Assembly (NCBI GenBank): GCA_026417155.1
Contig: JAOADU010000084.1
Span: 1 to 54,378 of the forward strand
Length of the DNA stretch: 54,378 nucleotides
Source: Bacteroidales bacterium
GTDB lineage: Bacteria; Bacteroidota; Bacteroidia; Bacteroidales; GWA2-32-17
Reading direction: 5' to 3'
Part shown: positions 24,299-54,378 of the stretch, piece after piece
Numbering within the stretch: position 1 is the stretch's first letter
Layout of the letters: each line of letters starts with the position of its first letter
Notes under the pieces: model-generated
Database searches by the model: none
What the model saw: the letters and a program-made list of their open reading frames with translations, nothing else
Told to the model about the DNA's origin: nothing
Position numbers and translations under genes: made by a program

Positions 24299-24321
24299 AC
24301 CACTTGAACTAAAAAAGTGGT
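24299..24321 (+). promoter_or_regulatory. Hairpin at the start of the first ECF sigma factor
   Basis: Seven-base arms ACCACTT (24299-24305) and AAGTGGT (24315-24321) flank a 9-base loop, ending one base before the ATG at 24323. The helix would cover the ribosome-docking region and could limit translation. Function is inferred from position only. Confidence 0.45.
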
Positions 24322-24322
24322 T

Positions 24323-24910
24323 ATGAAAACAAATCATTTATCCGATAGTGAGCTCATTAAAGCTTACTTATCGGGAAACGAGGCAGCCGTTGTAGAAATT
24401 ATTAATCGTTACAAGAGAAAAGTTTATACCTACATCTATTACAGAATAAAAAATAAAGAAAAATGCGCCGATATTTTTCAGGAAACTTTTATTAAAGTTT
24501 TTAGCTCAATTAAAGAAAACAAATACAACGATGATGGCAAATTCATTGCCTGGATAATAAGAATTGCTCATAATTTAATTGTTGATTACATTCGCAAAGA
24601 AGATAGATTAAAAACAATTGCTTTAGACAACTATGATTACGATTTATTAAATAATAAGAAATTGAGCGATGTTCATACTGAAAACAAAATTATTAAAGAA
24701 GAAATACATCATGACATACGAAACCTTCTGGATTATTTACCTCCATCTCAGAAAGAGGTTGTAGTTATGCGTTTTTTCTTAGGAATGAGCTTTAAAGAAA
24801 TTGCTGAAATAACAAATGTAAGTATTAACACTGCTCTTGGTAGAATGCGATATGCACTCATTAACTTAAAAAAATTAATTGCACAATATCATATAGAAGT
24901 TGTTGAATAA
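24323..24910 (+). CDS. ECF-type RNA polymerase sigma factor (first)
   Basis: A 195-residue sigma-70 family protein with only regions 2 and 4. Region 2 covers about residues 8-95 (ELIKAYLSGNEAAVVEIINRY, then CADIFQETFIKVF for -10 recognition and FIAWIIRIAHNLIVDYIRK). Region 4 covers about 128-185 (LLDYLPPSQKEVVVMRFFLGMSFKEIAEITNVSINTALGRMRYAL), a clear -35-binding helix-turn-helix. No anti-sigma gene of the FecR kind follows; instead there is a 56-residue acidic protein and a rubredoxin. I start at ATG 24323; a GTG six bases earlier sits inside a hairpin arm. Target genes are unknown. Confidence 0.9.
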   Translation: MKTNHLSDSELIKAYLSGNEAAVVEIINRYKRKVYTYIYYRIKNKEKCADIFQETFIKVFSSIKENKYNDDGKFIAWIIRIAHNLIVDYIRKEDRLKTIALDNYDYDLLNNKKLSDVHTENKIIKEEIHHDIRNLLDYLPPSQKEVVVMRFFLGMSFKEIAEITNVSINTALGRMRYALINLKKLIAQYHIEVVE

Positions 24911-25215: not shown

Positions 25216-25374
25216 ATGAAATATAAATGTAAAATTTGTGGATACGTTTACGATCCTGACATTGGCGATCCAAGTCAGATGATTTTACCGCAAACAATTT
25301 TCGAAGAACTACCGTCAGGCTGGGTTTGTCCTATTTGCGATGCTCCCAAAGAAGATTTTTTTCCAATAAATTAA
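25216..25374 (+). CDS. Rubredoxin
   Basis: A 52-residue one-electron carrier. The iron site is fully visible: C5 and C8 ([12 protein letters not shown]) and C38 and C41 ([14 protein letters not shown]), with the conserved GDP turn, the aromatic core and LPSGW. Length is standard. It acts in the cytosol, often as a donor in peroxide or superoxide detoxification or other redox reactions of anaerobes. It stands between two ECF sigma factor genes with no obvious redox partner adjacent, so its electron partners cannot be named from the window. Confidence 0.95.
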
Positions 25375-25423
25375 TTATTGATTAGCAACCATCAAATTAT
25401 TTTTTCGTCTTTAAGTTAGACTC

Positions 25424-26017
25424 ATGAAAATAAACTGGCAAGATACAGAGAGTGTTAAGCGTTTGGTAGAAGGGTGCATTAAGGGCGATAAAATGAGTCA
25501 ACAGTTGTTGTACAAAACGTTCTATGGCAAAATGTTAGTAGTATGCATGCGATATACACAAAATAAAGAGGAAGCGCTTGACATTTTGCAAGACGGATTT
25601 GTAAAAGTTTTTCAGAAACTGAGAAACTTTGAACACAAAGGTTCTTTGGAAGGTTGGATTCGAAGAATAATGGTTAATACCGCCATTGACAGCATACGTC
25701 GAAAAAAAGATGTATTTGCAAAAACCAACGAAGAACTTGAACTGGATCAGTTTGTGGACGATACCTTTGACGACGAAGAATTAGAAAAGATGACGTTGCT
25801 GAAAGCCGAAATATTAATTGAACTCATCCAGCAATTAACGCCTGCTTATCGCACTGTTTTTAACATGTATGTTATAGAAAACATGACTCACGCCGAAATC
25901 GCACAACGACTAAATATAAATATTGGAACTTCGAAATCGAACCTTGCCAAAGCAAAAATGAAACTTAAAGAATTGTTTACTCAATATATTAAAACATACT
26001 ATCATGAAACGTTTTGA
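25424..26017 (+). CDS. ECF-type RNA polymerase sigma factor (second)
   Basis: A 197-residue sigma-70 family protein. Region 2 (about 10-95) holds LVEGCIKGDKMSQQLLYKTFYGKM, EALDILQDGFVKVFQKL and GSLEGWIRRIMVNTAIDSIRRKK; region 4 (about 135-190) holds LIQQLTPAYRTVFNMYVIENMTHAEIAQRLNINIGTSKSNLAKAK. This subtype is widespread in Bacteroidota. Its last 14 bases overlap the start of the membrane-anchored PKD/CHU_C protein, so the two are almost certainly translated as a pair, the usual layout for a sigma factor and its membrane partner. The genes downstream, including the giant adhesin, are candidate targets. Confidence 0.93.
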   Translation: MKINWQDTESVKRLVEGCIKGDKMSQQLLYKTFYGKMLVVCMRYTQNKEEALDILQDGFVKVFQKLRNFEHKGSLEGWIRRIMVNTAIDSIRRKKDVFAKTNEELELDQFVDDTFDDEELEKMTLLKAEILIELIQQLTPAYRTVFNMYVIENMTHAEIAQRLNINIGTSKSNLAKAKMKLKELFTQYIKTYYHETF

Positions 26018-27182
26018 AGAAATCATACAAGATAAACTCAACACTTTCGAATATCCTTACGAAGAAAATTCGTGGATTCAATTTAAACGAAAACAAACAC
26101 TTCGAAAGTGGACTCGCTTTACTGTAATTTCAGCTAGTATTATAATGGTTACTTCTGTTATTTTCTATATGCTAACAAATGAAAATAAAATAGACAAAAA
26201 TTCAACCAATACTACTCAAAATACAATACAAACAAACGTTAATAATAATGAAATAATTAATTATGCCCAACCACAAAACACAGAAAAATCGACGGAACGT
26301 AAACATCAAACACCTACTATCCATGATAATGTTACAAGTACTGTCGCCCTTCAGAATAACATACAAAATCAAAACTCTGCAAATAATACATTCGATATCA
26401 ATGATACCAAAAATTATTCAACAGAAATTAAATACTCTATTGGGCAAACTACTCAACAAGGATGTGTTCCATTAACGGTAGAATTCTTTGTTTTGAATCT
26501 GCCCAAACAGGCTACTTGCCTATGGAACTTTGGCGATGGTACCGTATCAGCAGAAATAAATCCAATCCATATTTTTACAAAACCTGGTAAATATAACATT
26601 TCGGTAAAAATAAATCTTGATGACCAAACATCAATACTAGTAGAAGACGCTAAAGTACAAGCATATGCTCAACCTATTGCTCGCATTTATGCTAAACAAG
26701 AAGGAAATACTATCGTATTCGAAAATCAATCAAAACAATTTAGCACAATATCATGGATTTTTGGCGATTCCATTCTCTCTGAGGAAACATGGAAATATCA
26801 ACCCAATCGTAGTGGCAAGTACAATGTAAAACTAATTGCCGAAAACCAATACGGGTGTAAAGACACTGCCAATAAAATTATAGATTTTACATATTTATTG
26901 CCCGTTCAATTTGCCGATGCCTTTACACCCGATGGTGACGGTGTAAATGATGTTTTCGGACCACAAGTAATGGATTTCTCATACTATCAATTCACCTTAC
27001 AAATCTACAACAAAACAGGCAAAATGATATATGAAACCAAAGGTAGTCCTGTTTGGTGGGATGGTTCTGATATTCATACGCGTCAAAATTGCCCAACCGA
27101 TGTATATTTTTATAAAGTTATAGCTGTTGATAAATTGGGCAATAAACAAGAATTTTCAGGTAAAATTCAGTTGATTCGTTAA
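26004..27182 (+). CDS. Inner-membrane PKD protein with T9SS type-B (CHU_C) tail, putative sigma partner
   Basis: A 392-residue protein with an unusual layout. Residues 1-37 are a charged, probably cytoplasmic segment (RFEEIIQDKLNTFEYPYEEN, then WIQFKRKQTLRKW); 39-57 are a single TM helix; 60-140 an Asn/Thr/Gln-rich periplasmic linker; about 142-215 a PKD domain (CLWNFGDGT); about 222-285 a second PKD-like domain (SWIFGDS); about 303-392 a gliding-associated C-terminal domain (FADAFTPDGDGVNDVF to the closing GKIQLIR). The N-terminus has no cleavage site, which is at odds with a tail normally found on exported T9SS cargo. Overlap with the sigma gene suggests an anti-sigma or sensor role. That role is inferred. 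Confidence 0.82.
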   Translation: MKRFEEIIQDKLNTFEYPYEENSWIQFKRKQTLRKWTRFTVISASIIMVTSVIFYMLTNENKIDKNSTNTTQNTIQTNVNNNEIINYAQPQNTEKSTERKHQTPTIHDNVTSTVALQNNIQNQNSANNTFDINDTKNYSTEIKYSIGQTTQQGCVPLTVEFFVLNLPKQATCLWNFGDGTVSAEINPIHIFTKPGKYNISVKINLDDQTSILVEDAKVQAYAQPIARIYAKQEGNTIVFENQSKQFSTISWIFGDSILSEETWKYQPNRSGKYNVKLIAENQYGCKDTANKIIDFTYLLPVQFADAFTPDGDGVNDVFGPQVMDFSYYQFTLQIYNKTGKMIYETKGSPVWWDGSDIHTRQNCPTDVYFYKVIAVDKLGNKQEFSGKIQLIR

Positions 27183-27216: not shown

Positions 27217-27753
27217 ATGAAAAATATTTTCATTTTTTTTTCTTCCTTCCTATTATCTTCCTATGTTTTTAGTCAATGGACCACATCTTTTGATAAGTTA
27301 AAAATGTATGAAGTAAAAATTCATGGATTTTTAAATGACGAACAAGCATTATTTCTTTCTAGAATAATCTCTGACGATGAAACCGTTTTAATCGCAAGAT
27401 TTTATGAAGATTTAGAAGGTTATATTTTTTCGGAACAAAACATTTCAGAAGAAATTATTTTAAGTAATCTAACAAGTATAAAAAATATAACATTAATTTC
27501 TTTTCAAGAAGCAAAAGCAAATCCTGATAAATACCTTCAAATATATAATGACTTTAGACCAATAAGATTTAACTTGTCTACAACATTACCTTCGCCAGTT
27601 TATTTTAAAGATAAACAAAAAGAAGAAAAAGCTTATAGTATTTTTAAAAGTCTATGGACACAAAAATATGCTGAGAGTTACAAAAACATGCAAAATCAAA
27701 ACCCTATATATACCGATGAAGAAATAGAAGAATTAAAAAAGAAAAATAAATAA
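27217..27753 (+). CDS. Uncharacterised secreted protein before the giant adhesin
   Basis: A 178-residue protein with a signal peptide (about 1-19, ending VFSQ). The mature N-terminal part (KLKMYEVKIHGFLNDEQALFLSRIISDDETVLIARFYEDLEGYIFSE) alternates strands and helices as a small ferredoxin-like domain would. The C-terminal third is charged and helical, ending in EEIEELKKKNK. There is no T9SS tail, so it probably remains in the periplasm or envelope. It ends three bases before the giant adhesin start and shares its promoter, which points to a job in making or exporting that protein. No family recognised. Confidence 0.7.
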   Translation: MKNIFIFFSSFLLSSYVFSQWTTSFDKLKMYEVKIHGFLNDEQALFLSRIISDDETVLIARFYEDLEGYIFSEQNISEEIILSNLTSIKNITLISFQEAKANPDKYLQIYNDFRPIRFNLSTTLPSPVYFKDKQKEEKAYSIFKSLWTQKYAESYKNMQNQNPIYTDEEIEELKKKNK

Positions 27754-33700: not shown

Positions 33701-36063
33701 CCGGCTTAGCTGGAGGTATTTATTATGTAACTGTACAAGATGCCAATGGTTGCATAAGTGCAGGAAATGTTGTAGTCCAAGAACCAACACAATTAACATC
33801 TGTTATTTCTTCCACTACTCATAACCTATGCAATGGTCAATGTATAGGAACCGCTAGCGTTTTAGCCGGTGGTGGTACTCCTCCATATATTTATACATGG
33901 TTAGGCATAGGTCAAACAGGACCTAATGCTGTTAATCTTTGTGCCGGCACATATAATGTTGTAGTAACAGATCAACGCGGATGCACTAGTACTAACGTCG
34001 CCATTATAAATCAACCAACACCTATCTCAATTCAAGGTAACATAACAAATGTACAATGTAATAATACATCAACAGGAATGATTTCTGTAACAGTATCAGG
34101 TGGAACACCCGTATATCAATATGTATGGTTGCCACCTGCTAACAGTACTACTTCAATTGCCGCAAACTTATCGGCTGGAGTTTACACTGTCGTTGTGACA
34201 GATACCTGGAACTGCACAAATACAGCAACATTTACTGTAACTCAACCCATGCCATTGCAGGCATATATTAGTACACAACCAGCCCGATGCGGATTGCAAA
34301 ATGGTATGGCAGTAATAGATTCTGTAACTGGCGGTACTCCCTCTTATAGCTTCTTATGGTCGCCAGGAAACATGAATACAAGTCAAGTAACAGATTTAAC
34401 TAGTGGTATATATCAGCTAATCATCACCGATGCTAATAACTGCACATTAGTCCAACAAGTACCCATAGGACAAGTACAAGGACCCGATGTAGTTCAAATG
34501 ACAAAAACCGAACCTACCTGCTATGGCTATTTTGATGGGACTGCTACTGCAAATCCAATTGGAGGTCAACCTCCCTATCAATTCATTTGGAATAATGGTC
34601 AAAATACAGCAACAGCTATTAATTTAGGAGCTGGTGTTTACACTGTTACTGTAACAGACGCAAATGGATGCACTAAAGCTAATACTATTCAAATAGGACA
34701 GCCTTCTCCTATCGTGCCCATCGCCAATGGCTCTGATACAATTTGTGTAGGCAATTTTTCTGTAAATATTTCTGCAAATGCAACCGGAGGTACGCCTCCA
34801 TATTCGTTTATGTGGTCAGGACCTGGTTTAACAAATCCTACTTCTGCTGTTCAACTTGTTTCTCCTGATACAACTACAAATTACTTTGTAAATGTTTATG
34901 ATGCCAACGGTTGTGCTTCGGCAAACCCTGCAAGCATTACTGTTTTTGTTTATCCTCCTATCACAGCAAGTATTTCAAATGATGTAATAATATGTAAAGG
35001 AGATGTGTATTCAATTAATGTAACTGCTCAGGGTGGTAAGCCTCCATACACTTATGTGTGGAATAATGGAGTTGGAAATCCAAACATGGTTTCGCCAACC
35101 CAAACAACAACTTATATTGTTAGTGTCTATGATGCTTGTGGTACGCCCCCTGCTATAGATTCTATGACCATTACGGTAAAAAATCCGCCTCATATTGTTC
35201 GCGATCCACGGTTCCAAAAAGGCTGTGTTCCATTAGGTGCAAATTTTGATTGCATTGTCGATCCTTCGTCATATCCTGTTACATATTCATGGAACTTTGG
35301 CGATCCTTCATCAGGAATGCTTAACTTCTCGAACGATAGCACACCATCTCACACTTATAATATCCCGGGCAATTATAATGTTACTTTAACTTTAACTTCT
35401 TCTTTTGGTTGTCAAACCACAATAACATATTATAATCTTGTACAAGTTTCTCCTTATCCACAAGTTGATTTTAGTTATAGTCCTACAAGCAATATTACTC
35501 CTGTAAACGGTGATGTTTGGTTTGCTGCTCAAACAGATCCCAACAATCTGCTCACTTGGATCTTTGGCGATGGTTACACTGCATCAGGAATAATGAATCC
35601 TATGCACACATACACACAAGCCGGTGTATATACCGTAATGTTAATTGCCCGAAACGCTGATGGATGCATGGATACAGCCATTCATATGCTTCGTGTTAAT
35701 GATATCTTTACTTTGTGGGCTCCTTCTGCATTTTCGCCAGGGAGTGGCAAAGCCAATGGCTACTGGTATCCAAGAGGATTGGGCATTGATAGTAGCGATT
35801 ATTATTTAGCTATCTATGATCGTTGGGGACAGGTTGTGTTTGAAACACGAGAAATGCCTAAAGGGACTAATTTAACCCCAAGCGAAGTAATGACAATTTC
35901 CGTTGCTAACCAAGAATGGGAACCTGGCGGATGGAATGGAGGATTTATGAATGATATGTCAAAAATGGTTCCTGTTGGATCGTATATTTGGTATGTCCGC
36001 GTAAAAGAAAAAGATACTGGATATTTACACGAACGCAAAGGGATTGTTACAGTAATTCGATAA
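27757..36063 (+). CDS. Giant SprB-repeat T9SS adhesin (2768 residues)
   Basis: A cell-surface or secreted adhesin. Residues 1-19 are a signal peptide. Two Cys-rich beta domains cover about 20-135 and 160-295, then an Ig-like domain (about 300-380). From about 380 to 2315 there are 24 SprB-type repeats of 74-84 residues (C..NG, then GGTPPYTYxWSNG, then GTYTVTVTDANGC), interrupted once by a PKD-like domain after repeat 2. Two Ig-like domains (2315-2480), two PKD domains (WNFGD, WIFGDG; 2480-2648) and a type-B C-terminal domain (2648-2768) follow. That last domain lacks the usual NGDGxND motif. SprB is the mobile gliding adhesin of Flavobacterium, but repeat similarity alone does not prove gliding. 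No PorP/SprF gene lies nearby. Confidence 0.9.
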   Translation: MNKLYYLIIITLFSLKAFSQCYNCGNMFPSSVQTITCGTSTTVTSCAYGSEYSVYNVVAGNTYTWQTCGDTDFDTQLTLFQGSTCGGGTVLSYNDDACGLQSKITWTATFTGTVTLLLSKYNCTSQSTCMTLQWSCTSGGSGGGGTACPGAPSCSSSPPANDFCSTPTPICEFEGYCGNTSSSYTPGEIPSQFCGSVENNSWISFVASSSTATLNVYVCNCTNSWGIQMEIYSTTNCATFTSYSNCWNPGVMQNGTVTATGLTPGNTYLLMIDGYAGDVCNYTISASSDVFMANAIVQQTGTNTATICAGQSVNLLASGGTSYSWTPTTGLSNPNIANPIASPTTTTTYTCNVTGGNPLCPGTQQVQVTINVTPGLTINTSSTNPTCFGGNNGTASVTSVTGGTAPYTYNWSNGATTQNITGLSAGTYTVTVTSANGCTNTATITISNPPQMTVSATSTPSTCGSPNGTVTATVTNGTPNYTYTITPPGTSQSSSSNNYTFNNISSGTYTVLVIASNGCTATTTVNVASSGSVTAGFTYNGNQCVTGNSYNFTNTGTSGGGTTYSWTFPGGSPSSSTAQNPTGITWSTPGTYTVTQTVTQGSCNATYSQNITVYPNPTANITPTNVTCFGACNGSAIASGSGGSGTYTYSWSTGANTQNISSLCPGSYTVTVTDTYGCKGTATVNITQPAALNLTTTRTNPTCNGLCNGTANVTVAGGIGPFTYLWSNGATTASISGLCAGTYTVTVTDQASPGCTQTANVNLTNPAPITLSTSKVDASCGLNNGSATVTVTGGGTPNYNYQWSNGTVSNNNPSNTHTATGLTSGSYTVTVTSSNGCTQTATVNVGSTGGPTATITTSSNPLCNGVCSGSATVSIGGTLNPPYNYVWSNGASTTGTTSTTNTVNTLCAGTSSVTITDNIGCQAVASVNLTAPPALNVATSSVNAYCGQNNGSATANPTGGTPGYTYQWSPSAGSQTTQTATNLTPGTYSVTVRDANNCTQTATVNVGNNAGVTASISSQTNVSCFSGNNGTATASGTGGNLPYTYQWPASAGNQTTATATNLSAGTYTVTVRDANNCTSTATVTITQPTAVSATISSFTNALCNGSCNGTASVLGGGGTAPYTYQWSNTQTTQTATGLCNGTYFVTVRDANNCTATTSVTITQPSVLSATASSTNAYCGQSNGSATVNPTGGTSPYTYSWSSGQTTQTITNRPPGSYTVTVTDANGCTAVANTVIGNNPGGTASITSLNYTTCYGVCNGSATVSMGGGTPPYTYLWSNGGNTATISGLCEAIYTVTVTDAGGCTATAVADVKSPNPLVLAFNVTDVFCFGQCTGQITVTPSGGTPPYTYTWSNGSTQSSLSNLCSGVYSVTVRDANNCSATGNRSISNIPPITLSATTTSTNCNQSNGSIDLTVTNGAAPFTYNWSNGANTQDLNNISAGVYNVTVTDVKGCTATGSYTVTNISGPSASISTFTPVSCNGLCNGIATGVASGGTTPYTYAWSNGQNSQTATNLCAGTYVFSVTDAAGCVATANVTITQPPVMQVNSITSTHPNCNGQCNGTATVVVGGGTPPYSYQWTGGTPFGGQNPTSATTTGICSGILTVTVTDSKGCTVTANTAVVEPPILSLVPSSTPVLCAGQNTGTASVSVNGGTPPYTYQWSANTGGQTSAVATNLAPGTYQVTVTDSKGCTVSIPVTVSGPTPLTFSNITSTDLPCYQSNNGTISVSVSGGTPPYSYNWTNSTNSYSSTNQNIGNLPAETYFLTVTDANGCIITTNVIINQPPPLSLNLIKTDETCYQFCNGSIQAHVSGGQIPYTYLWSNAQTTSAIQNLCPGSYSVTVTDFNGCTRASNVTIIGPPLLQIDVVNVVPATCGQSNGEATISFQGGTTGYTIQWSTGGNSVHETNMPAGNHTVTLIDQNGCIATQNITIQNLNGPSITSVVSSPVTCYGYSNGVAIVSYNPSNPPAPPYTTTWNNNMTGDTITGLAGGIYYVTVQDANGCISAGNVVVQEPTQLTSVISSTTHNLCNGQCIGTASVLAGGGTPPYIYTWLGIGQTGPNAVNLCAGTYNVVVTDQRGCTSTNVAIINQPTPISIQGNITNVQCNNTSTGMISVTVSGGTPVYQYVWLPPANSTTSIAANLSAGVYTVVVTDTWNCTNTATFTVTQPMPLQAYISTQPARCGLQNGMAVIDSVTGGTPSYSFLWSPGNMNTSQVTDLTSGIYQLIITDANNCTLVQQVPIGQVQGPDVVQMTKTEPTCYGYFDGTATANPIGGQPPYQFIWNNGQNTATAINLGAGVYTVTVTDANGCTKANTIQIGQPSPIVPIANGSDTICVGNFSVNISANATGGTPPYSFMWSGPGLTNPTSAVQLVSPDTTTNYFVNVYDANGCASANPASITVFVYPPITASISNDVIICKGDVYSINVTAQGGKPPYTYVWNNGVGNPNMVSPTQTTTYIVSVYDACGTPPAIDSMTITVKNPPHIVRDPRFQKGCVPLGANFDCIVDPSSYPVTYSWNFGDPSSGMLNFSNDSTPSHTYNIPGNYNVTLTLTSSFGCQTTITYYNLVQVSPYPQVDFSYSPTSNITPVNGDVWFAAQTDPNNLLTWIFGDGYTASGIMNPMHTYTQAGVYTVMLIARNADGCMDTAIHMLRVNDIFTLWAPSAFSPGSGKANGYWYPRGLGIDSSDYYLAIYDRWGQVVFETREMPKGTNLTPSEVMTISVANQEWEPGGWNGGFMNDMSKMVPVGSYIWYVRVKEKDTGYLHERKGIVTVIR
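28890..34710 (+). repeat. Array of 24 SprB-type coding repeats
   Basis: About 5.8 kb of degenerate coding repeats of about 225-250 bases, each giving one 74-84 residue unit; one PKD-like unit interrupts after repeat 2. Three subtypes can be told apart. Four-cysteine repeats are numbers 3, 4, 6, 9, 11, 12, 14, 15, 18 and 21. Short-headed two-cysteine repeats are 2, 5, 7, 10, 13, 19 and 23. Long-headed two-cysteine repeats are 1, 8, 16, 17, 20, 22 and 24. Confidence 0.9.
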
Positions 36064-41576: not shown

Positions 41577-43955
41577 ATGAAGCGATTTATTTTTATTTTT
41601 TGCGTTTTGAATTTCTATTATGAATTAGTTTATACTCAATTTTACAATTATGGTAGTGTATATATTGAAACTTCTGGTGCTGTTTACGTAACCACAGATT
41701 TCGCTAACGAATCTGGTGGAAGTATCAATAATTGGGGAACGATTTTATTGGGTGGCAACTGGGCAAACAACAATCCTAATAATCAAGTCTTTATTAACTC
41801 CAGCCCCGGCACTGTCAAACTTATTGGAGGCAATCAATTTATTGGGGGAACTAATCAAACCAAATTTTTTAATTTAAGTTTAGAAGGTACTGGTATCAAA
41901 ACATTACAAATAAATTCAGAAGTTGAAGGCACGTTATTTCTAAATGATAGAGAACTAGCCACAGATCAGAATATTATGTTTGTTTCAAATTCTTCCATCA
42001 GTGCAATTACCTTTACATCGGGCTTTGTGAGCAGTTTAGGTAACGGATATCTCAGAAGAGCTATGAATAGCACTTTGCCATACATTTTCCCAGTAGGATC
42101 TTCGTTAGGAACACCTCGATATCGTCCGGTTGAGCTCACTTCGAGCACCTCTGCAAATCAAATTATGGGCGTTAGATTTGCCAATACCGACCCAACTAAT
42201 GAAAGTTTTGATAGAACAATTACCGATGGACAGGTTGGTAATATTAATTCTTTATTCTTCCATAAAATTGAAAGAGTTTCTGGATCTGCCCCAATGACAG
42301 TAAGCATTTTCTTTGATTCTTCTCAAGATGGAACATTCAATGAAATAGCACACTGGGACGATCAGCCTTCTGCCAGATGGGAAGCTACTACTACAGCCAC
42401 GTTGAACAATGGAACACCGCTTAGTACATTAACCATCAATTCGTGGAACGATTTCACACATACACCATTTGCATTATATGGTTGTACGCCTTCAACTCAA
42501 CCTACAAATATTGTTGCTACTGATACTATCATTTGTGCAGGACAACAAGTTACACTAACGGTTCAAGGAGGAAGCTTAGGCAGTGGTGCACAATGGACAT
42601 GGTACACAGATAATTGTGGCGGTACACCCATCGGCACGGGAAATAGTATACAAGTTTCTCCTACTTCGACAACTACATACTATGTAAATGCTGTTGGCAG
42701 CTGTGGAACAACAGAATGTACTTATTTGAAAATAGAAATTAGCCAACCACCAGTCATTTCCATCAATTCAAATAGTCCATTATGTGTTGGGAGTACTTTA
42801 AATTTATCGGCATCGGGAGGCATACAATATCAATGGAGTGGACCCAATAATTTTACTTCGAACCAGGCAAATCCAAGTATTGCTAATGTTACATTACAAC
42901 ACGCCGGCATTTATTATGTTACAGTTACTAATGCCGAAGGATGTACAAGCACTGCTCAAATAACTGTACAAGTTTCTAATTTGCCTCAAGGTACTATAAG
43001 CCCATCACAATCTGTTTGCGAAGGACAAACAATTAGCCTACAAGCAAGTGGAGGAACAACCTACAATTGGGGCGGGCCTAATAACTTCAATCAAACAGGT
43101 GCAACCGTTCAAATTACTAATGCAACTACTGCCAATGCCGGAACTTATTATGTTACGATTACCAACAACGATGGTTGTAGCATAGTGCTCAATACAACTG
43201 TAAATATACAAGCCTCACCACAAGTCAGTGCAACATATTCTGGAGCTGCATGCGAAGGGAACTCTATCACATTACAAGCAAATCCTTCCGGAATGAGCTC
43301 ATATCAATGGAGTGGACCCAACAACTTTACCAGCAACATACAAAATCCTGTTATCAATAATGTATCATCTGCTTCAAGCGGCACCTATACCGTTACAATT
43401 ACACATTCATGTGGTACATCAACAGCAACTGTTAATGTTACCATTTACGAACGACCATCAATTTTAGGAATGAATACTAATAACGAAAGCTGTAAAGAAA
43501 TGAAAGACGGTCATATACAACCTAGCATAAGTGGCGGAACTTCTCCATTTACTTTTACGTGGAACACAGGGAGTACTCAACCTCAACTTGAAGGACTTTC
43601 GGAAGGTACTTACACGGTTACCATTTCTGATGCAAATGGATGTACAACTACTGGAACAGCAAATATATTACGCGGCGAACACGAATGCTTTTTTATTCCT
43701 ACCATATTTTCGCCTAATGGCGACGGGAATAACGATGTTTTATATGTGCGTGGGCACGGTATTAAAGAATTGTTATTCAGAATTTATGATCGATGGGGTA
43801 ATTTAATTTTCGAAAGCACAAGCCCACAAACAGGATGGGACGGAACATTTAAAGGAAAGCCTATGAACGCAGGAGCCTACGCTTATATCGTCAAAATAAA
43901 ATTTTATAACGGAACTGAAAAAGAAATTAAAGACAATATAACATTAATACGTTAA
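41577..43955 (+). CDS. T9SS type-B adhesin of module A (Ig-like repeats, SprB repeat, CHU_C)
   Basis: A 792-residue exported protein. Residues 1-20 are a signal peptide (ending VYTQ). About 21-305 is a beta-rich N-terminal region with no named domain. Then come four Ig-like domains (about 310-630); the second to fourth share a YxWSGPNNF or YNWGGPNNF core. A single SprB-type repeat (about 633-700, GGTSPFTFTWNTG and GTYTVTISDANGC) follows, and last a gliding-associated C-terminal domain (about 704-792) with intact FSPNGDGNNDV, FRIYDRWGNLIFES and final ITLIR. The tail is the signal for T9SS type-B export. The PorP/SprF protein four bases downstream is the expected outer-membrane partner. Confidence 0.9.
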   Translation: MKRFIFIFCVLNFYYELVYTQFYNYGSVYIETSGAVYVTTDFANESGGSINNWGTILLGGNWANNNPNNQVFINSSPGTVKLIGGNQFIGGTNQTKFFNLSLEGTGIKTLQINSEVEGTLFLNDRELATDQNIMFVSNSSISAITFTSGFVSSLGNGYLRRAMNSTLPYIFPVGSSLGTPRYRPVELTSSTSANQIMGVRFANTDPTNESFDRTITDGQVGNINSLFFHKIERVSGSAPMTVSIFFDSSQDGTFNEIAHWDDQPSARWEATTTATLNNGTPLSTLTINSWNDFTHTPFALYGCTPSTQPTNIVATDTIICAGQQVTLTVQGGSLGSGAQWTWYTDNCGGTPIGTGNSIQVSPTSTTTYYVNAVGSCGTTECTYLKIEISQPPVISINSNSPLCVGSTLNLSASGGIQYQWSGPNNFTSNQANPSIANVTLQHAGIYYVTVTNAEGCTSTAQITVQVSNLPQGTISPSQSVCEGQTISLQASGGTTYNWGGPNNFNQTGATVQITNATTANAGTYYVTITNNDGCSIVLNTTVNIQASPQVSATYSGAACEGNSITLQANPSGMSSYQWSGPNNFTSNIQNPVINNVSSASSGTYTVTITHSCGTSTATVNVTIYERPSILGMNTNNESCKEMKDGHIQPSISGGTSPFTFTWNTGSTQPQLEGLSEGTYTVTISDANGCTTTGTANILRGEHECFFIPTIFSPNGDGNNDVLYVRGHGIKELLFRIYDRWGNLIFESTSPQTGWDGTFKGKPMNAGAYAYIVKIKFYNGTEKEIKDNITLIR

Positions 43956-43959
43956 GCCT

Positions 43960-44970
43960 ATGAAAACCAAATATATATTAATAGTGAGCCTATTTCTTTC
44001 AGTAAATTTTTATGCTCAGGATATTCATTTTATCAACCAAGATATCACGAAAACTATATTAAACCCATCATACGCAGGAAAAAATGAACAATCTTTAATG
44101 ACAGGTATCGTTTATCGTGATCAATGGTCAGAATTGGGGAAAATTTATAAAACATACACATTAGCAGGAGAAATTTTATTGCCCAACCAATCAAGACAAG
44201 CAGGTAACTTAGGCGTTGGTTTATGGATTGATAGAGATAACGCAGGTTATGTTCGATTAGGAACCAATCAAGTTGGATTATCTATTGCATATCATGCAAA
44301 ACTCAATGATCAAAATATTTTTGCGGGTGGAATTTACGGAGGTGTTTTAAATCAACATTTAAGTCAGGATAATATGCGTTGGGATAGTCAATACAATGGC
44401 ATTTATTACGATGCAAGTTTATCATCGAACGAAACTTTTTCGGCTCAGAGTATTACTAAACCCGATGTAGGAGCTGGTATTTCATATCATTTTTCAAATC
44501 GCAAACAAAAAGGCGAAGGAATTAGTATTCAAACAGGTTTTGCCATGTATCATCTCAATAAACCCGACCTTTCGTATACAAGTTCTGGCACAGATAAATT
44601 ACATACACGAAATGTTTTTCACTTAAGCAGCATTGTTGATATTTCTAGAACAATTATATCGTTAAATCCTTCTGTGTTATATATGCAACAAGGAAAATCT
44701 ACAGAATTAAGCTTGAGTTTCAAGAGTATTTTTGATATAACAAAATCGCAAATGAAAGGTGGAAATATTCAAAAAATTTGGGCAGGCTTCCATTACCGAA
44801 ACAAAGATGCAATTATTGCCGAAATAGGCATTCAAAGTTATAATGTTGCTTTTTCTTTTGCCTATGACTGGACTATATCGAGCTTAAAAGGCAAAGGAAT
44901 TGGTGCGTTTGAACTGGGATTAAAATATCAATATCAATTATTTAAAATGTCAAGTAATCGCTTATTGTAA
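43960..44970 (+). CDS. PorP/SprF family outer-membrane protein (module A)
   Basis: A 336-residue beta-barrel protein with a signal peptide (about 1-19, ending NFYAQ). The PorP/SprF signature is at the mature N-terminus: ILNPSYAGKNEQSLMTGIVYRDQW, followed by GVGLWIDRDNAG and a series of amphipathic strands such as FAGGIYGGVLNQ and AGISYHFSN. Family members sit in the outer membrane and retain or attach type-B T9SS cargo. It begins 4 bases after the 792-residue CHU_C protein, the standard pair, and ends 27 bases before the tail-fibre-like gene. Confidence 0.92.
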   Translation: MKTKYILIVSLFLSVNFYAQDIHFINQDITKTILNPSYAGKNEQSLMTGIVYRDQWSELGKIYKTYTLAGEILLPNQSRQAGNLGVGLWIDRDNAGYVRLGTNQVGLSIAYHAKLNDQNIFAGGIYGGVLNQHLSQDNMRWDSQYNGIYYDASLSSNETFSAQSITKPDVGAGISYHFSNRKQKGEGISIQTGFAMYHLNKPDLSYTSSGTDKLHTRNVFHLSSIVDISRTIISLNPSVLYMQQGKSTELSLSFKSIFDITKSQMKGGNIQKIWAGFHYRNKDAIIAEIGIQSYNVAFSFAYDWTISSLKGKGIGAFELGLKYQYQLFKMSSNRLL

Positions 44971-47414: not shown

Positions 47415-48786
47415 CAAACTCTAAAATAGAACATTTTTTTATTGTGTTTTTAGTCTCATCCCGAGCTACATATCCTAACCTTACCCAATATTTACCAGGC
47501 TTTTTAAATACACGTTCGCATGTGTTTCCTACGTGCTTATATCCATCATTAAAAATCCATACAAATTGTTCTATCGTACCATTCGGAAAATAAGAATCTT
47601 TACTGTCAAATATTACGGGTTGATTTACTCGAATTGTATCGGAAATAGTGATATAGGGCTGTACAACTCGTTCAACGTCAAGTGTATAATTGGCTACTTC
47701 ATGAATTTCATCGGCAATAGTATCAATCATTACTAAACGCACAAAATAGGTTCCATAATCGTTATAACAATGGTCGGCTTCCCATGCTTGCACTTTTACG
47801 CTATCCCCAAAATCCCATTCATAAATTACAGGTAACGTATCAATATACTGAGAAGTTTCATCAATAAAATGAAAGCAGAGTACCTTTTCTACCATTGTAT
47901 CACATTGTTCGAAAGTGGGAAGTGTAGAATAGAAACGATAAATATCATCTGTTTTTTTTCTATCACTTACGAAAAAACCTTGTTCGTAAGAAGCATCGCA
48001 AATAAAACCAAAATCATTTGATGGAGAGCTAAAAGGCTCTGGTAATGCTTGTGCAGGTAGCCATTGATTCTGTTCATTCTCCGAAAAAAATATATCAAAT
48101 TTTTTGGCACTATCTCTGTTTGAAGCAAAATACAAACGATTAGATATTACAAAAGGTGTAATTTCATCTGCCGAACTATTTATTTTCGAACCTAAATTTT
48201 TTGGGACATCCCATGTTGTATCTTTTTTTTCGCTTACATAAATATCAAAACCGCCATATCCACCGGGAATATTAGAAGAAAAAAACAAATACTTGCCATC
48301 GGAGGAAATACATGGATGTCCTACCCGATAACTTGTATTATTGTAAGGAAAAGGCTTGTAAACAGGTGTTTCTTTATTCGATGAAAAATCGTAAAAAAAT
48401 ATTCCGACGGGTGCTTTGTGTTTTTTGCCTCCTTTTATGTAAAAATTTTGCGAAACAATGAAAGTATCGCCATAAGCTACCATTGGACCATCATGAAATG
48501 TTGTGTTTATTTTTTTTAACATACTATCTATCAGTATCTTTTGTGATTTATCGGTCGAATAATAATACACATTATAAAAATATTCGTTTTCTGTTGTTTT
48601 TTTGCTTTCTATAGCAGTTGTTTTAACATTGCTTGTATAAAAAACACCTCCTTTATAGTAATAGGCTGGAGCAATATCGCTGTAGTCGGGAGTATTAAAC
48701 GAAACTGGTTCTATTTTTATGTAAGACTGTCCTATCAGTAATAATGGGAAAACAAAAAACCATATAAATATCACTGCTCGCACCAT
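47404..48786 (-). CDS. Exported PD40/PKD protein (module B)
   Basis: A 460-residue protein with a signal peptide (about 1-20). Residues about 150-290 form WD40-like PD40 beta-propeller units (GHPCISSDGKYLFFSSN, GYGGFDIYVSEK, NRLYFASNRDS, GFFVSDRKKTDDIY). About 300-375 and 378-460 are two PKD domains (YEWDFGDS, FVWIFNDGY, FKKPGKYWVRLGY). Proteins next to PorP/SprF often combine PD40 with an OmpA peptidoglycan-binding domain; here the OmpA part is absent and PKD domains take its place. A periplasmic or outer-membrane scaffold for the module's adhesin is likely. Its ATG shares one base with the PorP stop. Confidence 0.85.
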   Translation of the reverse strand: MVRAVIFIWFFVFPLLLIGQSYIKIEPVSFNTPDYSDIAPAYYYKGGVFYTSNVKTTAIESKKTTENEYFYNVYYYSTDKSQKILIDSMLKKINTTFHDGPMVAYGDTFIVSQNFYIKGGKKHKAPVGIFFYDFSSNKETPVYKPFPYNNTSYRVGHPCISSDGKYLFFSSNIPGGYGGFDIYVSEKKDTTWDVPKNLGSKINSSADEITPFVISNRLYFASNRDSAKKFDIFFSENEQNQWLPAQALPEPFSSPSNDFGFICDASYEQGFFVSDRKKTDDIYRFYSTLPTFEQCDTMVEKVLCFHFIDETSQYIDTLPVIYEWDFGDSVKVQAWEADHCYNDYGTYFVRLVMIDTIADEIHEVANYTLDVERVVQPYITISDTIRVNQPVIFDSKDSYFPNGTIEQFVWIFNDGYKHVGNTCERVFKKPGKYWVRLGYVARDETKNTIKKCSILEFDVY

Positions 48787-49697
48787 TAAAAAAACTTAGT
48801 AGAATAAACATGATATTTTTTTACTAACTCGTAACGTAAAGTTATTTCGTTTGTGCCCATTGTAACCTTTTGCAAGGGCGAAGTTATAAAATCGTGAGCA
48901 AATCCCAAACGAAACTGCGGATTTATTTGATATTCTATAAGCATGACTAATGATTCTGCCGAACGAAGACTAACACCAATTAATAAAGTTTTTAATATTT
49001 GAAATGAAAAATTCAAATCTATCTGTCCATCATTTTTTATAGATTTAAAATAAATAGACGGCATGAATTCAACATCTTTGCCCAATGAAACAACAAAACC
49101 CGTAGTAAAATAGGTTGTTATTGCCCTTGTTTTTATTGAATCGTAGGTTTGATATGCATTATACCCAAATCTATTTATTGTAGGAGACGACAATGATATA
49201 AAAAAATGAGGTGCATAATAATAAATTCCAAATCCAACATCGAAACGAGTTTGATTAATGATAACACCATTAAATGCATCATCTTGCTGATTGCTAAGTT
49301 GTAGTTTCGACAAATCGGCCTTAAAATTGGTCAATCCTGTCTTTAATCCGAATGCTAAATTTCGTTTCCCTTCCTTCATCCGTATTCGATAAACATAATT
49401 CACAGCAAGCCCTGTTAATCGGCTAACTCCAATTTGATCATTAAAAGCAGTAAACCCTGAAGCTATATTTAATCTTTTTAATGGTGTATGAAAACTAAAA
49501 TTCATGGTTTTTGGTGCGCCCTCTAATCCTGTCCATTGATTACGATACATAACCGTTGACGAAAACACTTCTCTGCTGCCTGCGTATGCCGGATTATGAA
49601 ACTGTCCGTTCATGTAAAAATTACTTGCCGAATGAAAATACTGTGCCGAAACACCTATTGTTTTAATTATCAACAATATACAAAAAGTTACTCTCAT
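48786..49697 (-). CDS. PorP/SprF family outer-membrane protein (module B)
   Basis: A 303-residue outer-membrane beta-barrel protein with a signal peptide (about 1-18, ending VSAQ). The family signature is clear at the mature N-terminus: FYMNGQFHNPAYAGSREVFSSTVMYRNQWTGLEGAPKT, then strand pairs such as ASGFTAFNDQIG and LAFGLKTGLTNF, and a C-terminal LRYELVKK. It should hold the 1539-residue type-B adhesin whose stop overlaps this start codon by 4 bases (ATGA). The two PorP proteins of the window share the family signature but otherwise differ strongly, as expected if each serves its own cargo. Confidence 0.93.
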   Translation of the reverse strand: MRVTFCILLIIKTIGVSAQYFHSASNFYMNGQFHNPAYAGSREVFSSTVMYRNQWTGLEGAPKTMNFSFHTPLKRLNIASGFTAFNDQIGVSRLTGLAVNYVYRIRMKEGKRNLAFGLKTGLTNFKADLSKLQLSNQQDDAFNGVIINQTRFDVGFGIYYYAPHFFISLSSPTINRFGYNAYQTYDSIKTRAITTYFTTGFVVSLGKDVEFMPSIYFKSIKNDGQIDLNFSFQILKTLLIGVSLRSAESLVMLIEYQINPQFRLGFAHDFITSPLQKVTMGTNEITLRYELVKKYHVYSTKFF

Positions 49698-52600
49698 CGT
49701 TTCAAGATTAAATAACCACTTTTAATTAGTTTATTGCCTTTATACAACATGTAAAAATAGGTATCGTCGGGCAAATCATTTCCTCCTTTATCTTTTCCAT
49801 TCCAATTATTCAAATAAGGTTTGCTTTCATATACCAAATTACCCCAACGGTTAAACACAGATAATTGATAAGTATCGTCTATACCATTAATTTCAAAGAA
49901 ATCGTTTATTCCATCTCCATTAGGTGAAAAACCTTCAGGAACAACAATCGTATAAACTTTAATCAATACATCGTCGTAAACTTGCGGACAAACGCCATTA
50001 ACAACAGACCATCGCAAAATATTATCCCCTTCGGCCAATCCTGTAATTTGTGTATGTGGACTATGAATATCCACAAATGAAGCTTGTCCTGAAATTACCG
50101 TCCATGTTCCTACACCCACATTAGGATTGCTTGCATTCAAATAAACAGGCTGTGAAAGGTCGTAAATTATCTGATCGTCGCCAGCATAGGGTTGAGATGG
50201 TGCTTCGTAAAATGTAATGTATGTTTGATTGGTATCATAACACGGACCATTTGTTACTTCCCATATAATGGGAAATGTTCCATACTGGCTTGAGTAAACT
50301 TGAGCATTATGTAAATATACATTATTGCAAGTCATTGTTGGTGGCAAAATCCACCGACCAATACCCTCTACAGGAGGTTGTGCTTGTAGCGTAGCCGTCA
50401 ATCCGCACAATTCCATAGACGAAGAATGAGCTGCTATTGAATTAAAAGCCCATATACGGATAGTATCGTTTGGTAAGATATTTGAACAATTACTACTATC
50501 TGTTACTTGCACCAAATAAATTTCATAATAATTTTGCTGTAAAGGTGACACAGAAAAAATACTGTCGTTAGAATATTGATTAAACGAATAGTTGATTCCA
50601 TTAATAGAATAAGTAACATTCCAAGGACCATTGCCTTCGATATGAACATGAATATTAATTGATGAATTAAATGTTTTACAAATACTATCATTGTTTAGGT
50701 GCTCAAAAGTTACGTTCTTCTGTGGATTACAGTTAATGGTTATTATATTACTAGAAGAAGAACAATTATTTTTAAAAACATTACGTCTATATGACGTGCT
50801 TCCAATAATATAATTAGGCACATAAACAGGTTGATTGGCACCTGCAATATTTTGCCATTGATTATTTACCAACATTTGCCACTGATATGATACATTAAAG
50901 CCTTGTGTTGGAACAGATTCTTCTATCGGTAAAATACTTTGCCCGTAACAATAATCTGTTTGCGTCGTATTTATTTCATTCGATGGTAAATAAATAGGAT
51001 AAACCGAAATAATATTACTTGTATCTAAGCAAGCTCCCGATTCAATTATTCTAGCAAAATACACAGTATCCCAAATAGCAGGTGTAAGATAATTTTTTTG
51101 ATTATTAATCCCTATAGCAGGCATCCAATTAGCAGATGATGTGCTATAAATCCATAAATACGTATATTGATTGTTTCCACCCGAAGGCTGATTGATAAAG
51201 CTTCCTAAAGCAAGCATTTGACCAGAACATACTTCCACTATTGAAGATAATCCATGATTTGATTCAATAATATTGAGCAAAGGTGGTAAAATTTCGACAA
51301 CTACAACATTACTTGTGTCGGAACAGCCTTGTATTTGAATAATTCTGCGATAATAATAAAATTGATTGGAATAATCGGTAATGTAAAAATGATATATTAA
51401 TGATGTATCAACTGTTGACCAATTGAGAGAATCTAAGCTCATCTGCCATATTGTAGATACATTAGGAATGGAATTTTGCCCACCGATATCGCCTTCAGCT
51501 ACTGTACAATATTGAGCATAAATAAGCGTATCTTCAATAAAAATAGTATTACCCGCAATAGCGTTTATGATAATAATCTGAATGGTATTTGAAGTATCAT
51601 AACAACCATAGCTCGAAACAATTCGACGGTACAATGCTTGAGTGTATTGATTGGAAGGGAATATTGATGGAGTTTGTGCAGATAAATTCTGCCAGCCCGA
51701 ACCATAATTTACTTGCCAAAGGTACGTAAATGATGTATCTATAGTCCCTGTAATTGGCATTATTGAATCATTCTGGCAATATATTGTATCAGCTGTTTGT
51801 ATCTGATTAGTAAGCTGAATGACAGAAAAATGCAATACATTACTGGTATCTGCACACCCATTCCCAATAACTATTCTTCTAAAGTACCTTGGTGCATCTA
51901 CATACCAATTGTAGTTAGGATGCGAGTTAGGCAAAGGAGCACTAGTCCAATTTATACCATCAAAACTACTTTGCCATAAAAAATTAAATACCCCACTGCC
52001 AGTTGGTGTTGTTCCTGTTATAGCAATTGTAGAATGATAACAAACCTGAGCAGAACTATTGGTTTGAATGATATTGTTTTGAATATTCGTCTGTGGCGAT
52101 AAAGAAACCGTCGTTGTTGCAATACATGAATTATTGTCAGTTGCAACTATATTATACACGCCCGGACAAAGGTTGGATAAATTAGCCGGAGTTATTTGAT
52201 ATGGAGGGGTTCCGCCGGTAACATTTGCTGTAATACTTCCATTGCATGAATATTCACACGTTGGACTAGATACAATATAATTTATAGCTAAAGGTGGTGG
52301 TTGATCGATATTAATATAAGAAACAAGCTGACAGTTATTGGCATCAGTTATAGTTAAATAATACGTGCCAGCAAATACATTAGAGATAGCAGGCATATTT
52401 GTCCCGTTACTCCAAATGTAATTATAAGGCGAAACACCTCCCGTAACCGTTGCGTTGGCAAAACCATCAGATAAACCATAACATGTTACATCTGTTTTAA
52501 AAATATTTACCTGAATTTGTGGTGGTTGATTTACAACGACAGTATCGTAACGAACACAACCTTTACTATCACTAACTGATAAGAAATATATTCCTGCGGG

Positions 52601-54313: not shown

Positions 54314-54315
54314 TT

Positions 54316-54378
54316 TCAAATAGTTTTTATCCAATTTGCTAAATTAAAATTATCAAAGTTGCCCGAACTCATAAGCAA
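54316..54378 (-). CDS. 3' end of a Mur ligase, probably Mpl (partial)
   Basis: An open frame enters from the right edge and ends at TGA 54318-54316. Its 20 visible residues include LLMSSGNFDNFNL. That matches the C-terminus I recall for Mpl (UDP-N-acetylmuramate-L-alanyl-peptide ligase), where E. coli has a similar MSNGGF sequence, so I suggest a peptidoglycan-recycling ligase. The stop is followed two bases later by the adhesin ATG, so module B probably continues this transcript. The identification rests on a short stretch. Confidence 0.5.
   Translation of the reverse strand: MLMSSGNFDNFNLANWIKTI

Follow-up and report, generated by a model that had tools for sequence, protein, structure and literature searches.

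The DNA analysed here (the window) is a stretch of 54,378 nucleotides, contig JAOADU010000084.1 of assembly GCA_026417155.1, from a Bacteroidales bacterium whose genome is fragmented and amounts to 2.4 Mb. This genome is of Bacteroidota type, carrying CHU_C, PorP and gldL genes, and its named relatives are Bacteroidota. The locus of interest is formed by an ECF sigma factor gene, whose product contains both the sigma2 and sigma4 regions over the Pfam cut-offs (Sigma70_r2, 3.2e-15; Sigma70_r4_2, 3.2e-16), and by a partner gene that overlaps it by 14 nt, as had been noticed in an earlier inspection made without database searches (the sequence-only reading). The features are as follows:

25385..25409, forward strand: promoter-like motif GCAAC-N16-CGTC, a predicted autoregulatory ECF promoter
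25424..26017, forward strand: ECF sigma factor gene, 197 aa
26004..27182, forward strand: predicted anti-sigma factor with a T9SS type-B tail, 392 aa (the partner)
26004..26114, forward strand: partner residues 1-37, predicted cytoplasmic sigma-binding segment with two helices and the invariant W24
26118..26174, forward strand: partner residues 39-57, transmembrane (TM) helix
26175..26435, forward strand: partner residues 58-144, predicted disordered periplasmic tether of conserved length
26436..26891, forward strand: partner residues 145-296, two PKD domains
26907..27173, forward strand: partner residues 302-390, CHU_C / T9SS type-B sorting domain
27217..27753, forward strand: small signal-peptide protein P0003, 178 aa, with homologues at the equivalent place in loci L111, L112, L116, L118 and L151
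27757..36063, forward strand: giant adhesin, 2768 aa, a predicted target of the sigma factor

The adhesin, which carries a CHU_C domain at 35722-36024 (28.5 bits), had been described as lying immediately downstream of the pair; it is indeed nearby and co-directional, but the gene for the 178-aa signal-peptide protein intervenes. A second ECF sigma gene, also encoding 197 aa and with a GTG start, is located at 24317-24910, about 0.5 kb upstream of the pair. No TM partner gene stands directly behind it, and a short ORF and a rubredoxin-like gene (about 25217-25375) occupy the interval. Elsewhere in the window, at 41577-44970 and 48786-54334, two CHU_C cargo genes are each found beside a gene of the PorP/SprF family, which is the usual type-B arrangement; the giant adhesin linked to the sigma factor has no adjoining gene of this family.

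Architecture of the partner protein

The partner was proposed in the sequence-only reading to consist of a cytoplasmic N-terminus, one TM helix, a linker, two PKD domains and a full CHU_C domain, and this build is borne out by Pfam and NCBIfam matches, hydropathy and an AlphaFold2 model. The TM helix (hydropathy 2.13) is followed by a polar linker and by two PKD/Ig-like domains (Pfam PKD_4, 4.9e-15; also PKD), while the CHU_C match spans profile positions 2-86 of 86 with 55.1 bits (Pfam cut-off 27), and TIGR04131 is matched with 41.4 bits (NCBIfam cut-off 35). The AlphaFold2 model, obtained from 42 sequences, places helices at residues 2-14 and 21-32, the TM helix at 43-58, a disordered tether of about 80 residues at approximately 59-140 (pLDDT mostly <50), and the beta domains, that is, the two PKDs and CHU_C, at 145-392 (pLDDT mostly >90). 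Searched by fold, the whole model matched PorU and, generically, tandem Ig/fibronectin domains, which gave no specific hint.

Regarding the features that define a type-B cargo protein, the partner has the C-terminal TIGR04131/CHU_C domain over cut-off. In place of a cleavable Sec signal peptide without an anchor, about 38 conserved residues precede the TM helix, and this segment is similar in the orthologues.

Conservation of the pair in Bacteroidota

Orthologues of the sigma factor are present among 60 related genomes, the closest ones at 53-66% identity, and in 12 of these 60 genomes a full-length partner is encoded beside the sigma gene. In a profile search of the same genomes, full-length matches to the partner scored 380-462 bits in frames of about 400-442 aa. 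CHU_C cargo proteins matched this profile through their C-terminal part alone, at no more than 229 bits and in frames from 280 to over 3000 aa; a few more distant full-length matches were obtained at 179-203 bits (frames of 428-441 aa).

A scan of named genomes yielded 80 relatives of the sigma gene, 77 of them with a readable next gene. In 69 of these 77 loci, cultured Flavobacteriales among them, the partner ends in a CHU_C-like domain according to a profile built in this analysis; the stricter Pfam CHU_C model (E<=1e-3) recognises 40 of 72 partners, the domain having diverged in many Flavobacteriales. Cultured carriers of the pair include Crocinitomix algicola, Lishizhenia tianjinensis, Cryomorpha ignava and Taishania pollutisoli. 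The search for ECF genes adjoining TM-PKD-CHU_C proteins suggested in the sequence-only reading has given a positive result, and the architecture, which had been presented as being without a known counterpart, is widespread in Bacteroidota. Its recurrence in 12 of the 60 related genomes and in most of the 77 readable loci exceeds what chance would give. A one-off gene fusion or an assembly artefact was also considered, and is ruled out by the conservation of the pair in relatives.

When 72 partner sequences were aligned, W24 was the sole invariant residue of the N-terminal segment. In the CHU_C domain, positions F307, P309, F318, P320, W352, G354, W370 and G386 are nearly invariant, which, together with the scores over cut-off, upholds the identification of the tail as a conserved T9SS domain. 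The span between the end of the TM helix and the CHU_C tryptophan measures 295-369 residues in 61 of 64 sequences, with a linker identity of 17%; the maintenance of length despite such a low identity is what would be expected of a protein that must bridge a gap. A much shorter span, of 108 residues, is found in two relatives.

A second, paralogous ECF and TM-CHU_C pair has been located at 5213-6956 of L123, on contig C8 of the host genome (G000), and also in L126, L128 and L129. It occurs in the four genomes of the genus examined (4/4), without GCAAC-N16-CGTC upstream.

Barrel-type partners and the relationship with Dma anti-sigma factors

Other ECF genes of the order are accompanied by partners with a similar N-terminal segment and TM helix and a different C-terminus. 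Six long alternative partners were analysed, of which four exceed the Pfam cut-off for OMP_b-brl_2 barrels and two match barrel families below it. The N-termini of CHU_C-type and barrel-type partners align over 51 columns, with a probability of 88% and an E value of 4e-7 in a single hhalign comparison. In the partner encoded at L219, five copies of the N-terminal motif and a TM helix are followed by a PorP/SprF-type barrel (74 bits with TIGR03519, less than the 90.55 required; one of the aligned sequences matches Pfam PorP_SprF at 1.9e-19).

Besides this gene (L219, 6551-8443), with its five tandem W motifs, repeated motifs appear in L106, L107, L125, L188 and L189. In addition, L124 (6366-6971), L127, L105 and L104 contain ECF partners of 196-262 aa in which the like N-terminal segment and TM helix precede a short, beta-rich-looking end domain with a weak resemblance to type-A CTDs (Por_Secre_tail in L124, E 0.028, below cut-off).

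An N-terminal anti-sigma segment, a TM helix, a disordered tether and a C-terminal barrel are the elements of the Dma anti-sigma factors of B. thetaiotaomicron, which have cognate ECF21 sigma factors and span both membranes (PMC13088901). The window partner is most likely an anti-sigma factor of the Dma type, with a T9SS tail in place of the barrel. It is considered here a Dma variant and is not filed as a member of the class, because the barrel, one of the defining features of Dma, is absent. The earlier suggestion that the partner is a membrane regulator of the sigma factor is very probably correct. For the misfit that had been seen between an inner-membrane anchor and an outer-membrane tail, the Dma proteins that span both membranes offer a published precedent (PMC13088901).

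These data also bear on the idea that the partner is simply T9SS cargo, whose signal peptide is unusually long and whose gene happens to lie in a sigma operon. Its CHU_C domain over cut-off and its PKD domains are as in cargo. However, 38 to 55 residues or thereabouts precede the TM helix, they are conserved and contain the invariant W24, this N-terminus is homologous to that of the barrel-type partners, and both the length of the protein and its position behind an ECF gene are constant, all of which makes this explanation very improbable. A cargo protein whose long signal peptide is cleavable was likewise set aside.

Promoter motif and gene neighbourhood

The motif GCAAC-N16-CGTC(T/A) was spotted by eye in upstream regions and then counted in those same regions, where it is present at a gap of exactly 16 in 43 of 90 (0-2 with gaps of 10-15 and 17-22; 0.05 in shuffles), so that independent support for it comes from its placement elsewhere in the genomes. 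The window contains a single match, at 25385-25409, where 0.14 would be expected. The motif is kept upstream of 11 of the 13 sigma genes of the window type, whereas 25 other ECF genes and the four sigma genes of the second CHU_C-type pair all lack it upstream. Six related genomes together contain it 72 times, versus 15 for the pattern read backwards; in Crocinitomix and Lishizhenia it is no commoner than the control.

The order sigma factor, anti-sigma factor, small signal-peptide protein and giant secreted protein is repeated in six genomes (G002, G003, G004, G005, G007 and G042), and in G008, G035 and G036 a large secreted gene comes directly after the pair. In the wider set, a sizeable share of the loci continue with a gene for a CHU_C protein of about 1000-1300 aa and others with housekeeping genes, and the neighbourhood is therefore not fixed across the phylum. 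The association of the adhesin with the pair, already suspected from the window, is supported by the conserved gene order and by a like promoter motif.

Small signal-peptide proteins (134-223 aa) encoded directly before giant CHU_C adhesins have been observed, besides the one at 27217-27753 of the window, in L271, L272, L309, L311, L365, L368, L400, L401 and L406. They belong to at least four families without detected mutual similarity, and those scanned have no Pfam match. Possibly, they act as adhesin-specific partners or chaperones.

Predicted regulon

The regulon was read, in 13 genomes, from the stretches around motif sites, setting the sigma operons aside and keeping those sites that lie before a gene and outside long ORFs. 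Sixty-two such intergenic sites were collected, 15 of which run into a contig end. At 38 of the 47 resolvable sites the first or second gene of the operon encodes a T9SS tail, of type B in 19 cases and of type A in another 19 (type-A tails over the Pfam cut-off in 13/13 tested); in the stretches used for comparison, about 10% of genes have such a tail, a figure biased upwards by the choice of those stretches around pairs of this kind. The nine other resolvable sites lead operons that lack a tail of either type in these genes.

In the host genome, the intergenic motif precedes the sigma operon, two operons composed of a small secreted protein and a CHU_C protein of 1418 or 1449 aa, a similar operon cut by a contig end, a universal stress protein gene and one for a type-A protein of 963 aa. 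As occurs in the window, cargo operons led by the motif often combine a small secreted protein with a giant CHU_C adhesin. In G042 it immediately precedes the two genes that adjoin the pair, for the small protein and for an adhesin of 3021 aa, and in Cryomorpha ignava it stands before the giant CHU_C gene adjoining the pair and before a small-protein/CHU_C operon elsewhere. The universal stress protein gene carries the motif both in G000 and in G003 (L275, L307), being a conserved predicted target that is not secreted. From these sequence patterns we conclude that the pair probably controls T9SS cargo, its predicted anti-sigma factor carrying itself a cargo tail.

It could be argued that a different sigma factor, of like specificity, recognises the cargo promoters, and that the pair controls its own operon and the neighbouring adhesin only. 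In this respect, the pair was not found in G001, a 97% complete assembly of the same genus, nor in the assembly of G021, and both keep the motif before cargo genes (5 of 7 informative upstream regions and 2 of 3, respectively). The pair may lie in gaps of these assemblies, or a second sigma factor may read the motif. Nevertheless, the motif marks sigma genes of the window type to the exclusion of the other 25 ECF genes and of the second pair, the cargo upstream regions of nine further genomes in which no pair was detected contain no full-score site (best score 12.7, the minimum for the sites used in the motif matrix being 18.7), and the pair lies next to giant repetitive genes, a frequent cause of breaks in assemblies. 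Control by another sigma factor is consequently regarded as unlikely.

Proposed mechanism

The best explanation for the locus, to which we assign a probability of roughly 60%, is an ECF sigma factor with an envelope-spanning anti-sigma factor in which the state of a T9SS tail controls the sigma factor and cargo synthesis. The short helical segment at the N-terminus of the anti-sigma factor would hold the sigma factor, the chain would cross the inner membrane once, and the periplasm would be bridged by the tether of conserved length and the two PKD domains. At the outer membrane, the T9SS or a PorP-like barrel would handle the type-B domain. The condition of the tail, which may be free, displaced by cargo, engaged, or exported or pulled, would be relayed through the membrane to the sigma factor, which could be released by pulling, conformational change or proteolysis and would activate its own operon and a set of T9SS cargo operons. 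In this way cargo synthesis would follow the state of the T9SS or of the cell surface. The simplest biological sense of the arrangement would be a feedback by which secretion or the state of the surface acts on cargo synthesis, with a logic like that of the secreted anti-sigma factors of flagella and type III systems. The tail may be a decoy, a plug or a fixed anchor.

The host genome has the T9SS motor gene gldL, which also exceeds the cut-off in 31 of 34 other genomes with the pair; as it is found in 58 of 60 genomes of the order, its presence does not discriminate. A SprA HMM gave no match in the host genome, and none in the controls either, which makes this search uninformative. Type-B tails bind PorP-like proteins (PMC9143113), 14 genes for which exceed the cut-off in the host genome, none of them beside the pair.

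A more specific version of this mechanism, plausible but tentative, is a feedback switch by cargo mimicry. The inner-membrane-tethered anti-sigma factor would offer its own type-B tail, and a free T9SS would engage or pull it, releasing the sigma factor and giving rise to more cargo; with an occupied or blocked T9SS the sigma factor would stay bound, or the sign could be the reverse. If this were true, secretion capacity would be read directly by one envelope-spanning chain.

The main rival explanation, which we consider rather doubtful, is a purely periplasmic sensor. The protein would still be an anti-sigma factor of the inner membrane, but its PKD-CHU_C part would remain in the periplasm and serve as an ordinary Ig-like sensor or dock, with a CHU_C fold that was recruited for binding and is not handled by the T9SS. 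Either ligand binding or regulated proteolysis would then release the sigma factor. Export may have been lost in the many relatives where CHU_C has diverged (Pfam recognises the domain in 40 of 72), and the 108-residue span of two relatives and the lack of a PorP gene adjoining the pair point in the same direction. Against it stand the span conserved in most relatives, the nearly invariant CHU_C landmarks, the exchange of the C-terminus with outer-membrane barrels, including one of PorP type, and the T9SS cargo regulon.

Returning to the envelope-spanning anti-sigma factor, the secretion- or surface-sensing switch imagined in the sequence-only reading is supported in part and gains two independent lines of support, the Dma-like class and the cargo regulon; its supposed uniqueness and the misfit of anchor and tail are not upheld. 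The presence of the switch motif before genes for exported surface proteins suggests that the cell ties their making to the state of the export machine. To our knowledge, it is an open question in what way Bacteroidota adjust the production of very large surface proteins to T9SS capacity, and the pair, being widespread and combining a cargo-tailed predicted anti-sigma factor with a predicted cargo regulon, is a direct candidate for this function. The promoter motif and the cultured pair-bearing strains (Cryomorpha ignava, Taishania pollutisoli, Crocinitomix algicola and Lishizhenia tianjinensis) make the idea testable.

Comparison with known systems

FlgM, the flagellar secreted anti-sigma factor, is a soluble protein that is exported whole, so that cargo genes follow the state of secretion. 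The logic proposed for the window pair is comparable, although its chain would stay anchored in the inner membrane. Similarly, the secreted anti-sigma factor BtrA of Bordetella is reported to be coupled to a secretion machine whose cargo genes follow secretion state (PMC10732220). BtrA is soluble and exported whole, whereas the window partner is anchored in the inner membrane and its tail alone would be engaged.

Within the T9SS field, the PorA-PorXY-SigP system of Porphyromonas gingivalis shares with the window a T9SS-tailed protein upstream of an ECF sigma factor, in that case one controlling T9SS genes (PMC7712824, PMC4800418). However, PorA is located at the surface and acts via a two-component system, while in the window a single chain carries both the tail and the predicted sigma-binding segment, and cargo genes are the predicted targets. 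PG1035-PorP-PorE and SprB-SprF have in common with the partner the type-B tail and, likely, a like class of receptor (PMC9143113); unlike the partner, PG1035 and SprB are surface proteins without an inner-membrane anchor or a sigma partner. The SM6 promoter class of F. psychrophilum also involves a CGT-type -10 box, an ECF/anti-sigma pair and T9SS genes, though SM6 controls T9SS components and the predicted targets of the window pair are cargo (PMC9723704).

Literature searches returned no description of a TM-PKD-CHU_C anti-sigma architecture, although a 2024 PNAS paper on Dma may mention variants. The closest system is Dma itself, which has in common with the window partner the N-terminal segment, a single TM helix, a long disordered tether, a C-terminal outer-membrane element (predicted in the window) and an adjoining Bacteroidota ECF gene; the N-terminal likeness is drawn from profile homology with barrel-type partners of related genomes. 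The sigma factor is ECF21 in Dma, and in the window an ECF factor by its Pfam domains. The C-terminus is a beta-barrel in Dma and a T9SS type-B domain behind two PKD domains in the window, these PKD domains after the tether being an addition relative to Dma, and the Dma regulon comprises vesiculation and PUL genes in contrast to the T9SS cargo predicted here. With the window partner, the recently described Dma class would no longer be confined to beta-barrels but would take in a further kind of outer-membrane element, and one relative would add a barrel of PorP type.
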